Source: Cucumibacter marinus DSM 18995 (lineage in GTDB: Bacteria; Pseudomonadota; Alphaproteobacteria; Rhizobiales; Devosiaceae). Taken from it: a DNA stretch of 64,000 nucleotides. The stretch is taken from positions 62,001 to 126,000 of the forward strand of contig NZ_AUCR01000011.1 of the NCBI RefSeq assembly GCF_000429865.1, read 5' to 3'. The notes under the pieces were generated by a model. It ran no database searches and was not told where the DNA came from. It worked only from the letters and a program-made list of their open reading frames with translations. This document shows, piece by piece, positions 35,833-41,129 of the stretch. Numbering within the stretch: the first letter of the stretch is position 1; each line of letters begins with the position of its first letter. A program made the translations under genes and the position numbers.

Positions 35833-37047
35833 ATGTCCAAAGACGTCAACAAGGTCGTGCTTGCCTATTCGGGCGGGCTCGACACCTCGATTATCCTCAA
35901 ATGGCTGCAGGCCGAATATCAGTGCGAGGTGGTGACTTTCACCGCCGATCTCGGCCAGGGCGAGGAACTCGAGCCGGCCCGCAAGAAGGCCGAGATAATG
36001 GGCATCAAGGAGATCTATATCGAGGATCTGCGCGAAGAATTCGTGCGCGACTTCGTGTTTCCGATGTTCCGGGCCAATGCGCTTTATGAAGGGGTCTATC
36101 TGCTCGGGACCTCGATCGCCCGGCCGCTGATTTCCAAGCGGCTGGTTGAGATCGCCCATGAGACAGGCGCCGACGCCATCTCGCATGGGGCGACCGGCAA
36201 GGGGAACGACCAGGTGCGGTTCGAACTCTCCGCCGCTGCCCTTGATCCCGGCATCCGCGTCATCGCGCCGTGGCGCGAATGGGATCTGCAAAGCCGGACC
36301 CGGCTGATCGAATATGCCGAACAGCACCAGATCCCGGTGCCCAAGGACAAGCGCGGCGAAGCCCCGTTCTCGGTCGATGCCAATCTGTTGCACACCTCGT
36401 CCGAGGGCAAGGTGCTGGAAGATCCGGCGGAGGCGGCGCCGGATTATGTCTATCAGCGCACTGTCGATCCCGAGGCGGCGCCCGACGCGCCAGAGTTCGT
36501 CACCATCGGCTTCGAGAAGGGCGACGCGGTCTCGATTAATGGCGAAACGCTATCGCCAGCCATGGTGCTGACCAGGCTCAACGAACTCGGCGGCAAGCAT
36601 GGTGTGGGGCGGCTCGACCTGGTTGAGAACAGGTTTGTCGGCATGAAATCGCGCGGGGTCTATGAGACGCCGGGCGGGACCGTGTTGCTGACCGCCCATC
36701 GCGGCATCGAATCGCTCACGCTCGACCGCGGGGCAGCGCATCTCAAGGACGAGATCATGCCGCGCTATGCCGAGCTGATCTATAACGGTTTCTGGTTCTC
36801 GCCCGAACGCGAAATGCTGCAGGCGCTGATCGATACCAGCCAGGAGCTGGTGGCCGGCGAAGTGGTGGTCAAGCTTTACAAGGGGTCAGTGTCGCTGGTC
36901 TCGCGGACGTCACCGAATTCGCTTTATTCGGAAGATCTGGTGACCTTCGAGGAAGGCGGCACCTATGATCATCACGATGCCGAAGGCTTCATCCGGCTCA
37001 ATGCGCTTCGGTTGCGCACCTATGCGGCGCGGCGCCAGAAGGGCTGA
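35833..37047 (+). CDS. argG: ArgG, argininosuccinate synthase
   Basis: ArgG joins citrulline and aspartate with ATP in arginine synthesis. The ATP-pyrophosphatase P-loop [17 protein letters not shown] opens the protein, and [19 protein letters not shown] binds citrulline and aspartate. [13 protein letters not shown] is a C-terminal landmark. At 404 residues it is full length. A strong terminator follows 24 bp after the stop. Confidence 0.97.
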
Positions 37048-37416: not shown

Positions 37417-37955
37417 TGAAGTCTCCAATCCGCGGGGGTCAAAATCCCCGTAATCGTTATTAGCGGTGCAAGGGCTAGACTGCGCCGATTGAAAAATCAA
37501 CCAGATCGCGGGTGGGGTTACTTCGCTTGAGCATTTGGTCTTGCCCTGGTGGCTGATTGACCTGCAGACCTGCGGCGCGGTTCCGCATTTTTGGTGTGGG
37601 ACTGCAAGTCCTCTGCCGGATGGGCCGTGCGGTCGGACAAATTGCCGACAGTCGTTGGTAAGCAAAATGTCCCGAATTCGGACAGGATCGCGAATCGCGT
37701 TCTTGCCTGCGGAGAATACGGATATCCAACGCATTACCAATTGCGCGTATTGGTTGCTTGGTGGTTGCCGTATTTCTACTTAATTTACAGAAGACCTAAT
37801 TAAATAAGCAGTGAATACTTCATAAGTTAAAGATCGTAGGGTTATGTAACTAAACAAAAATCTACCGCTTAATGGCCTGTTAACCATGGAAGAACAGGCT
37901 ATTCGAGGAAGAGCGGAAAACGTCCTGCTCTCTCACTCACCAGCGGAGATTTAAG
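37417..37955. other. 539-bp non-coding gap, AT-rich toward the secreted-protein operon
   Basis: No credible gene is visible. The right half (about 37735-37880) is markedly AT-rich for this genome and includes ACTTAATTTACAGAAG and AATTAAATAAGC, fitting a regulated promoter region for the three secreted-protein genes. The left half holds the minus-strand leader of the DUF2218 gene. A 10-bp palindrome CCGAATTCGG lies at about 37672-37681. Confidence 0.6.
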
Positions 37956-38441
37956 ATGCGTAACACCCTGTTTGGCGCAGGGGGCCTCATGGCTATTGCC
38001 TCGATTTGCGGCCTAGCACCCGCCCACGCCGAAGATGTGATCTTTTCCGCCAACCTGACGGGAAGCTGCACCCTGGCTCTGACAACGCCGGGTGTGTTGA
38101 CCCTGTCGGGAGATGGGCAGACCCTTGGCAGTGAGGAAACGCTTGGTGTCCCCGCCACGCTGACCATCTTGTCCATAGGCAGCAATACCGTGACAGTCGG
38201 CGCGCCGTCTCGGACAAGCGCGCCGCCGGCGGGGTATTCGAGCGGAACCGAAACGGTCGAGGTGACCTATCAGGGGACCGGGCTGCTGTCATCGGTCTCC
38301 CAGGGTTACACGGAGAGCGAGACCAACTTTGGCGTCGGCACTATTGCCTTGACCGCGGTGACCTTCAACAGCCGCATCCTCAACAGCAGCGGGTTCGCCG
38401 CGGGCTCCTACACCGTGGAATCGGTCGTGACATGCAGCTAG
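37956..38441 (+). CDS. Secreted fimbrial-subunit-like protein (DUF4402/SCPU-like)
   Basis: A 161-residue secreted protein. MRNTLFGAGGLMAIASICGL ending at APAHAED is a signal peptide. The mature part is small-residue rich and beta-like, with one cysteine in LTGSCTLAL and one at the extreme C-terminus (VESVVTCS), the disulfide pattern of spore-coat-U/DUF4402 fimbrial-like subunits. SGFAAGSYTVES matches the closing strand of that group. It overlaps the next gene by 10 nt. Assignment is by pattern only. Confidence 0.6.
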   Translation: MRNTLFGAGGLMAIASICGLAPAHAEDVIFSANLTGSCTLALTTPGVLTLSGDGQTLGSEETLGVPATLTILSIGSNTVTVGAPSRTSAPPAGYSSGTETVEVTYQGTGLLSSVSQGYTESETNFGVGTIALTAVTFNSRILNSSGFAAGSYTVESVVTCS

Positions 38442-38854
38442 CCCGATATCTTGCCCCGCTGGGCCTGGTGGCGCTGACGGCCTTCGGCTCGATCTCCGCC
38501 GCACACGGGCAATCGCTTTCACCCATGCGCAAAGACGGCCTGACCTTGTCCGACATGAAGGGTTTCAGGGTCGCGGTTTCCAATCCCTATCAAAAGCGGA
38601 TGGCCTTTGTGCTCGAGGTGATGGATCCCGAGTTCGAAACCCCGGTCGGCGATGCGGTGGTGCAGCCTGCCCGTCTTGTGCTGGCGCCCGGATACGGGCG
38701 TCACGTCATCCTCGCGTTCAAAATCCCGCCTAACCAGAAGGAGCGGACCATTGGCCTTTGCGTTCGACCTGAAGAAATCTCTGGCTCGATCCTGCCTCGC
38801 GTGTGCGGCACTTTTGTCGGCCGCCGCGCCCATGCCGCCAGCGCTGGCGGCTGA
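38432..38854 (+). CDS. Secreted one-domain pilus-chaperone-like protein
   Basis: A 140-residue protein with a signal peptide (YLAPLGLVALTAFGSISAAHG). The body FRVAVSNPYQKRMAFVLEVM, PARLVLAPGYGRHVILAF and [20 protein letters not shown] looks like the N-terminal immunoglobulin domain of PapD-type chaperones, with strand-rich N-P and P-x-R-L-x-L-x-P-G features, but the second domain is absent. Two cysteines may pair. It overlaps the subunit-like gene upstream and a third gene downstream, so the three are translated together. A chaperone role is inference. Confidence 0.55.
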   Translation: MQLARYLAPLGLVALTAFGSISAAHGQSLSPMRKDGLTLSDMKGFRVAVSNPYQKRMAFVLEVMDPEFETPVGDAVVQPARLVLAPGYGRHVILAFKIPPNQKERTIGLCVRPEEISGSILPRVCGTFVGRRAHAASAGG

Positions 38855-39161
38855 CGGGCTGTTTCTTCCGGCGGCACCGACCGGGCCGGGAGGCGAGGAT
38901 TCGATCACGACCTCGACCGGCATTCGCTGTTCGCAGTCGATCAACTCGAACGGTGCCTATCTCGACATGGGCGTGGTGGGCGGCGGGCTCAACGCCTATC
39001 TGGGCGAAGGTTCGGGCATCGAGAGTTCGGCCATCGGTTATGCGCGGGTGGTGGTGCCGCTCGGGCGGCGGCCTGAGCGGCTCGACTGCAACGAAATCTA
39101 CGCCCTCGAAGTGCAGCGGCTGAAAGAAGAAATCAGGCTTTTGAAGATCGGACTCGAGTAG
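38751..39161 (+). CDS. Secreted protein with C-terminal coiled coil, unknown function
   Basis: A 136-residue protein starting at TTG, preceded by an excellent ribosome site (GAAGGAG, 7 nt spacing) inside the upstream gene, which it overlaps by 104 nt in another frame. [19 protein letters not shown] is a signal peptide. The mature part has [20 protein letters not shown] and a glycine-rich stretch, a second cysteine in [13 protein letters not shown], and a charged helix ending [13 protein letters not shown] recognise no family. It is the third gene of the secreted operon. Confidence 0.65.
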
Positions 39162-39311: not shown

Positions 39312-41129
39312 ATGCCCTTGCGCAATATCGCGATCATCGCCCATGTCGACCATGGCAAGACCAGCCTTATCGACGTGCTTCTCCGCCAGTCAGGCACTTT
39401 CCGTGACAATCAGAAAGTGGCCGAGCGGGCCATGGACTCGAATGATCTGGAGCGCGAGCGCGGGATCACGATCCTGGCCAAGGTGACAGCGCTCGACTGG
39501 AAAGGCACCCGGATCAATATCGTCGATACGCCGGGCCACGCCGACTTTGGCGGCGAGGTCGAGCGCATCCTGAATATGGTCGATGGTGCCATCATCCTGG
39601 TCGATGCCGCCGAAGGCCCTATGCCGCAGACCAAGTTCGTGCTCTCGAAAGCCCTGCGCATGGGGCTCCGGCCGATCGTCGCGATCAACAAGATCGACAA
39701 GCCCGACGAACGCCATTCCGAGGTGCTCGACGAGATCTTCGATCTGTTCGTGGCGCTCGAGGCTGATGAAAACCAACTCGACTTTCCGGTGCTTTACGGT
39801 TCGGCCAAGCAGGGCTGGATGGCGATGTCGCCCGAAGGCCCCAAAGAAGATTCCGGGCCGCTGCTCGATCTGGTGCTCGAACATTTCTCCGAGCCGACTG
39901 TTGTCGACGGGCCGTTCCGGATGCTGGCGACAACCGTCGACCGCGATCCGTTCCTCGGGCGCGTGCTGACCGGCCGGGTCTATTCGGGTACCGCACTGGC
40001 CGGCGCGCCGATCCATGCGATCAGCCGCGACGGCAAGATTATCGAAAAGGGCCGGATCTCGAAGGTTCTGGGTTTCCGTGGGCTGGCGCGCGAGCCGGTG
40101 GAAAGCGGGGAGGCCGGCGACATCGTCGTGATTTCAGGGCTCGAGACCGCGACCGTCGCGGATACGCTGGCGGCCCCCGAGGTCACCGAACCGCTCGACG
40201 CGCAACCGATCGATCCCCCGACCCTGTCGATGACGTTCCGCATCAATGACGGCCCGCTGGCCGGTCGCGAAGGCGACAAGGTGCAATCCCGAGTTATCCG
40301 CGACCGGTTGATGCGCGAGGCGGAAGGCAATGTGGCGCTCAAGGTCACCGATGGCGATGACCGCGACAGTTTCGAGGTTGCCGGCCGTGGCGAATTGCAG
40401 CTTTCAGTGCTGATCGAAACCATGCGGCGCGAAGGGTTCGAGCTCAATGTCGGCCGTCCCAAGGTGCTGATGCAAGAACAGGACGGGGTGACCGTCGAGC
40501 CGATCGAGGAAGTCACGATCGACGTCGACGATGAGTTCACCGGCCCGATCGTGCAAAAGCTTTCCGAGCGGCGCGGCGAATTGACGGACATGCGGCCTTC
40601 GGGCACCGGGCGCACCCGGCTCAAGCTCAATGTCCCGACACGCGGGCTGATCGGCTATCAGCCGGAACTGCTTTCGGATACCCGCGGCACCGCGGTCTTC
40701 AACCGGGTGTTTTCCGCTTATGAGCCGCATAAGGGCGCGCTGCCGGGCCGGCGCACCGGGGTCCTGATCTCCAACGCCCAGGGCGATGCTGTTGCCTATG
40801 CCTTGTTCAATCTCGAGGATCGCGGCGCGATCATGATCGAACCGGGCGAAGCGGTTTATGAAGGCATGATCGTGGGCGAGCACAGCCGCGAAAACGATCT
40901 CGAGGTCAATGTTCTCAAAGGCAAGCAGCTCACCAATGTGCGTGCTGCGGGCAAGGACGATGCGGTCAAGCTGACCACACCGAAAAAACTCAGCCTCGAA
41001 CAGGCGCTGAGCTATATCGCGGAAGACGAATATGTCGAGGTGACGCCGAAATCGATCCGGCTGCGCAAGATCCATCTCGATCCGCATGACCGCAAGCGGG
41101 CCATGCGCGCCGCCGCCAAGGCGAGCTAG
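39312..41129 (+). CDS. typA: TypA/BipA, ribosome-associated GTPase
   Basis: A translational GTPase of 605 residues that helps 50S assembly and stress growth. G1 [16 protein letters not shown]2/switch [11 protein letters not shown]3 [15 protein letters not shown] and G4 NKIDKPD are intact, followed by EF-G-like domains and the BipA-specific C-terminal domain ([18 protein letters not shown]). Its stop codon shares the tetranucleotide CTAG with the converging hydrolase gene. Confidence 0.96.

Follow-up and report, generated by a model that had tools for sequence, protein, structure and literature searches.

Three small genes, here called A, C and D, lie close together on the forward strand of the window (the whole stretch of 64,000 nt from Cucumibacter marinus that was analysed). 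They are flanked by genes which we take, by eye, to encode an argininosuccinate-synthase-like protein (35833-37047) and a TypA/BipA-like GTPase (39312-41129). The source genome, of 3.7 Mb, is 99.3% complete, and its closest relatives group with Devosia. Reading frames, overlaps and the change of frame for D (Table 1) have exactly the coordinates given in the first-pass annotation. That annotation also placed signal peptides on all three proteins, and these can be seen by eye (...AHA/ED in A, ...AHG/QS in C and ...ALA/AD in D).

Table 1. Features of the A-C-D locus (positions in the window) and of its phage and viral counterparts (positions in the named locus)
Feature	Position	Strand	Description
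Gene A	37956..38441	+	Exported pilin-like subunit, 161 aa, two invariant cysteines; phrog_25895
Gene C	38432..38854	+	Predicted PapD/Caf1M-like chaperone consisting of domain 1 alone; 140 aa including signal peptide
Gene D	38751..39161	+	TTG start; exported, 136 aa; conserved pair of cysteines, two long beta strands by prediction, coiled coil at the C-terminus; phrog_37374
A/C overlap, 10 nt, ATGCAGCTAG	38432..38441	+	Seen again at corresponding junctions in relatives
C/D overlap, 104 nt, +1 frame	38751..38854	+	Codes both for the last residues of C and for D's signal peptide
Shine-Dalgarno sequence of D, AAGGAG	38738..38743	+	Within the coding sequence of C (KERTIG codons), 7 nt before the TTG
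AT-rich stretch, candidate promoter region	37751..37900	.	65% AT; no sigma-70 consensus found
Donor-strand extension predicted at the N-terminus of mature A, EDVIFSANLTGS	38031..38066	+	Ahead of Cys38; putative FimA-like VxFxGxV...C pattern
Cys110 to Cys125 of C	38759..38806	+	Conserved pair that aligns with model strands F1 and G1, where FGL chaperones have their disulfide; loop short, as in FGS chaperones
Coiled coil ending D	39093..39158	+	Heptad positions Y-V-L-I-L-L, read by eye
Three Vibrio phage trios, C-D-A	L139 3609-4845 (MG592456.1); L142 2046-3397 (MG592671.1); L143 2079-3256 (OZ195776.1)		Annotated as hypothetical or coil-containing
Extended marine viral cassette V-U-A-C-D-T	among L145-L224 (IMG/VR), e.g. 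L157 649-3863		U and V are undescribed secreted proteins

Gene layout and overlaps

The overlaps are not chance, since both recur in relatives. An ATGCAG junction is repeated at subunit/subunit and subunit/C junctions in three relatives, with overlaps of 10 nt (13 nt at one). The internal TTG of D and its ribosome-binding site, which the first-pass annotation had judged a good one, are kept in all nine Devosia-type loci, where D overlaps C by 89-104 nt; in Mesorhizobium, D starts at an ATG and the overlap is 34 nt. In a comparison aimed at dual-frame selection, fourfold-site divergence is 0.43 inside the C/D overlap and 0.49 outside, so that synonymous variation is not clearly lower there. The stretch upstream of A is AT-rich, as had been noted, against about 40% AT in its surroundings, but its description as a regulated-looking promoter gained nothing from a scan upstream of A, which found no sigma-70-like promoter.

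The three proteins

NCBIfam and Pfam scans of A, C and D gave nothing significant. For D this agrees with the first-pass annotation, which knew of no family for a protein ending in a coiled coil. For A the same annotation proposed a fimbrial-type subunit of the DUF4402 or spore-coat-U kind. The family assignment is not supported by Pfam profiles: A matches neither PF14352 nor PF05229 at E up to 5, nor do A and 15 relatives at E up to 0.5 (a genome search with PF05229 was set aside, its control having been silent).

The fimbrial character of A fares better. In nearly every locus the first subunit carries (N/D)VxFxGT(I/V)...C at its N-terminus, with 10-12 residues ahead of the first cysteine, whereas second subunits (A2 or A') have almost no residues ahead of that cysteine. 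Patterns of the type VxFxGxV...C are known from FimA-type donor strands. The presence of an extension on A1 and its near absence on A2 and A' is as expected if some subunits donate a strand and a tip or cap only accepts one; A1 may thus both donate and accept a strand, and A2 may only accept one. The source lineage has A1 only, against two subunits in its nearest relatives, and a search of the source genome for a second A copy elsewhere found none; a single subunit is the rule in several lineages, that of the source among them. By eye, the signal peptide of A is of the AxA type, without a lipobox.

Structure was predicted with AlphaFold2 for an A-linker-C chain from a Mesorhizobium locus (L072), read through one stop onto one chain, with an alignment of 34 rows. 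Both domains have pLDDT mostly >90. A is modelled with high confidence as a beta-sandwich, its first 14 residues lying outside the sheets; it could not be matched alone to a known pilin fold because the C half of the model fills the hit list of the fold search. C is predicted to have the fold of domain 1 of a pilus chaperone. Among solved structures it matches Caf1M (Z 12.8, 105 aligned residues), DraB (12.5), FimC (12.2), PapD (about 11-12) and CsuC (11.3), and over its full length it matches chaperone domain 1 only (model residues 162-270 to FimC/PapD 1-119). Its end coincides with the end of that domain (PapD residue 119), just past strand G1, and aligned relatives end alike. The predicted fold supports the earlier suggestion of a chaperone cut to one immunoglobulin domain.

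To which class of chaperone would C belong? The two invariant cysteines lie on strands F1 (237-247) and G1 (259-268) of the model, joined by a loop of 11 residues. The F1-G1 loop averages 13 residues in FGS and 24 in FGL chaperones, and the disulfide is a mark of the FGL class (PMC4133393). C has the cysteines of an FGL chaperone but a short loop, and its mature chain begins at A1, whereas FGL chaperones have an N-terminal extension ahead of that strand; it has the loop of an FGS chaperone but also the conserved cysteine pair, and FGS chaperones have no F1-G1 disulfide. In the model, C is a mix of FGS and FGL marks. Read by eye, Lys112 has no clear equivalent in C, and an equivalent of Arg8 is approximate only.

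PapD-like folds also occur in MSP domains (Z 10.6) and in a WxL-interacting protein (9i1y, Z 10.6), so the fold alone is no proof of chaperone activity. A sequence search of the PDB with the profiles gave chance-level matches only, C weakly touching MSP domains (E 0.69). The fused A-C model has no confident interface (pTM 0.51), and docking is neither proved nor refuted by it. Of the structural check proposed in the first-pass annotation, the Ig-like chaperone fold of C is supported by the prediction; the docking of the A-C pair is not confident.

In D, two conserved cysteines bracket a pair of predicted long strands and a loop that varies in length, and a heptad coiled coil (Y-V/I-L-I/L-L-L) follows, its heptads perfect in D of the source. 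The model of D is weak (pLDDT 66), and a fold search with it gave no match.

Distribution in bacteria

A first search of the family found orthologous clusters in three other genomes, in the order A1-A2-C-D. A search for related loci with C alone found none; the D alignment worked, and with it a scan of GTDB genomes yielded 73 loci, in Devosia, many Mesorhizobium, Aureimonas, a Phyllobacteriaceae MAG, Hellea and others. Weak D-like matches in three further genomes (G013, G023 and G450) were treated as chance. By profiles for the three proteins, A, C and D stand in that order in 71 of the 73 loci, 70 of them complete; the 71 include one with A and C in pieces (L082), and the two exceptions are a contig that ends before A (L098) and a locus with no C and a broken D (L110). 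The arrangement is A1-A2-C-D in Devosia, A1-C-D-A' in Mesorhizobium and A-C-D elsewhere. D profiles reach beyond the Alphaproteobacteria, and C and A adjoin D in a gammaproteobacterial locus (L134), a Vibrio-like one (L135) and L136; the Vibrio-type C is homologous by profile comparison (E 8.3e-10). The trio is a conserved unit. Co-occurrence of the homologues, on which the first-pass annotation had staked its reading, is strict in bacterial and viral loci.

Several Mesorhizobium copies (L066, L082, L107, L109 and L110) appear to be disrupted by frameshifts, which suggests that some strains can do without the cassette. The Phyllobacteriaceae MAG SP17 has a tandem duplicate, A-C-D-A-C-D-A-A (L103 4996-9260). 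Genes that we take to be of c-di-GMP type (EAL from product names, GGDEF and HD-GYP motifs by eye) adjoin or overlap the trio on a Mesorhizobium plasmid (L126 1-1305), on a V. nigripulchritudo plasmid (L140 4380-5102) and in the gammaproteobacterial genome (L134 2703-4370 and from 8276). On the V. nigripulchritudo plasmid a 262-aa secreted protein occupies the place of C (L140 2811-3599), perhaps a different or larger chaperone.

Searches for an usher

The first-pass annotation pointed out that no usher gene is adjacent, which understates the case: no match to PF00577 was found in the whole of the source genome or in three relatives, the E. coli control being positive. PF00577 is likewise missing in 14 of 15 further carriers and overall in 17 of 18 other carrier assemblies (L038, probably the same as G001, having been removed; with L040, probably the same as G019, removed as well, 16 of 16-17 lack it, apart from one exception). 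In this one, M. ciceri WSM1271 (L111, G380:C2), the usher (E 1.8e-35) is unrelated and sits on a different replicon from the trio. An usher match occurs in 11 of 150 genomes of the order at large; absence is thus common there, and the weight lies on the carriers doing without an usher. The joint loss of chaperone domain 2 and usher would make sense if domain 2 serves the usher.

Phage and viral copies

The trio is also carried by phages, which the first-pass annotation missed. Vibrio phages 1.081.O, 2.275.O and D479 have C-D-A as three adjacent genes, in D479 close downstream of rIIA/rIIB. In IMG/VR, 86 viral contigs hold relatives of D. A-C-D is present in 76 of the 81 viral loci examined, mostly of marine phages, a proportion that does not count independent events as some of the contigs are duplicates; 64 of the 76 lie within a larger array, U-A-C-D-T, in which U encodes a secreted protein of some 290 residues and T what seems to be a membrane or coiled-coil protein. 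In all six loci read, another gene, V, stands ahead of U. Just upstream of the extended cassette in L157 is what we take, by eye, to be a GH19-endolysin-like protein. U has no Pfam match and no match among named phages; V has no Pfam match, and its relatives are found in ten records of the phage collection, including Pelagibacter and Roseobacter phages. In the stretches read of the Pelagibacter phages Mosig (L225 6717-10213) and HTVC023P (L226 5824-8403), V and T-like genes are present but A-C-D is not, as though the trio had been inserted into a larger module for the phage envelope.

Viral and bacterial A and C are homologous by profile comparison (E 4.8e-16 for A, 9.4e-8 for C). Matches to phrog_25895 (A), phrog_25455 (C) and phrog_37374 (D) were obtained with A and D of the source and with viral A, C and D. 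These PHROG families are annotated as 'unknown function' only, and the library entries do not link the three. Surface-fibre systems borne by phages have a published precedent in the curli secretion genes of pelagiphages (PMC7029224, PMC9599517).

Interpretation and alternatives

What might the three proteins do together? We lean, if only slightly, towards a minimal chaperone/subunit system in the cell envelope that works without an usher and forms a donor-strand fibre or coat. A would be exported as an incomplete beta-sandwich, with its N-terminal strand passing to the following subunit; C, via its F1-G1 edge, would hold A in the periplasm until hand-over. D, with a disulfide to hold it and a coiled coil through which it would multimerise, may anchor the polymer of A, or nucleate it, at the outer membrane or wall. 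What results would be a short donor-strand fibre or coat that alters the cell surface, and phages may carry the trio to change the surface of the infected cell. Phage carriage, together with the putative c-di-GMP neighbours in three places, favours a surface role; for phages, the obvious candidates are exclusion of superinfection and aggregation of host cells, which have been proposed for pelagiphage curli genes (PMC7029224, PMC9599517). For the export route, a bolder proposal, which we consider unlikely, is that D oligomerises into an outer-membrane assembly or exit platform replacing the usher; bacteria and phages would then share a third way of making donor-strand surface fibres independently of an usher.

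Could the trio instead be a shield against superinfection and phage adsorption, a cap or coat on the envelope, rather than an adhesive fibre, by which phage receptors or the entry of DNA would be blocked, so that phages exclude others and bacteria are protected? Its presence in three Vibrio phages and many large marine viral contigs fits such a use, as do the rIIA/rIIB genes nearby in D479 and the presumed endolysin upstream in one viral contig. Surface change against superinfection has been proposed for other pelagiphage genes (PMC7029224, PMC9599517). However, the bacterial copies sit among ordinary chromosomal genes, and c-di-GMP-type genes beside three trios suit adhesion at least equally. 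We regard shielding as a doubtful explanation, and one that is compatible with the favoured fibre or coat, as its end use.

It is quite improbable, in our estimate, that no polymer is made at all, A being a self-complemented or periplasmic monomer and C a PapD-fold binding partner rather than a donor-strand chaperone. The other roles of PapD-like folds, the failure of A and C to dock in the fused model and the occurrence of one subunit only in several lineages speak for such an arrangement; but first subunits have a donor-strand-type extension that second subunits have lost, pilus chaperones are the best matches of C, and its cysteine pair is placed as in FGL chaperones. An ordinary chaperone-usher pilus with the usher encoded elsewhere in the genome is very improbable: the fold of C and the motif of A do resemble chaperone-usher parts, but this candidate was rejected on the absence of PF00577 from the source genome and nearly all other carriers, and in addition C has no domain 2 and no usher is seen near the phage trios. 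The probability that the reading frames are chance or misread, D especially as it starts at a TTG inside C, is negligible and is refuted by the conservation of D, whose homologues occur in the 73 bacterial loci and >80 viral contigs, some of them with a start of their own and a frame that does not overlap.

Comparison with known systems

The known PapD-type chaperones have two domains and act together with an usher. A widespread system with domain 1 only and no usher would separate the part of the chaperone for subunit folding from the part for the usher. How, then, does the product cross the outer membrane or become anchored to it? Carriage by marine phages points to an envelope-remodelling function worth carrying for phages, and the trio gives meaning to the three PHROG families. 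The cassette is compact, at about 1.2 kb, and fits one plasmid for testing. Searches of the open-access literature on usher-independent or single-domain pilus chaperones found no description of the trio system.

With classical and archaic chaperone-usher pili (FimA/FimC/FimD, Caf1/Caf1M/Caf1A, CsuA/B-CsuC-CsuD) the trio shares an exported subunit with a FimA-like donor-strand motif and a chaperone with a predicted PapD domain-1 fold, in one operon. It differs in having no usher, no chaperone domain 2 and no Pfam relation, in the combination of a short F1-G1 loop with FGL-like cysteines in C, and in the constant presence of D. Type V pili of Bacteroidia and archaeal threads are usher-less donor-strand polymers, as is proposed for the trio, but they use lipoprotein processing or an unknown route and have no PapD-like chaperone gene assigned (PMC9715654), whereas the trio encodes a chaperone-like protein. 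The subunits of Type V pili are lipoprotein precursors cleaved by a protease; A, with no lipobox by eye, would fall outside that class.

We know of no donor-strand motif in the WxL/WxLIP clusters. In these Gram-positive clusters a small surface protein is paired with a partner of PapD domain-1-like fold, again without an usher, but the system is wall-bound and has no D (PMC10599100). The curli or type VIII genes of pelagiphages are alike in being a bacterial surface-fibre cassette that is also found in marine phages (PMC7029224, PMC9599517); unlike the trio, they encode unrelated proteins (CsgA/B, F, G) that form an amyloid and use a dedicated CsgG pore.
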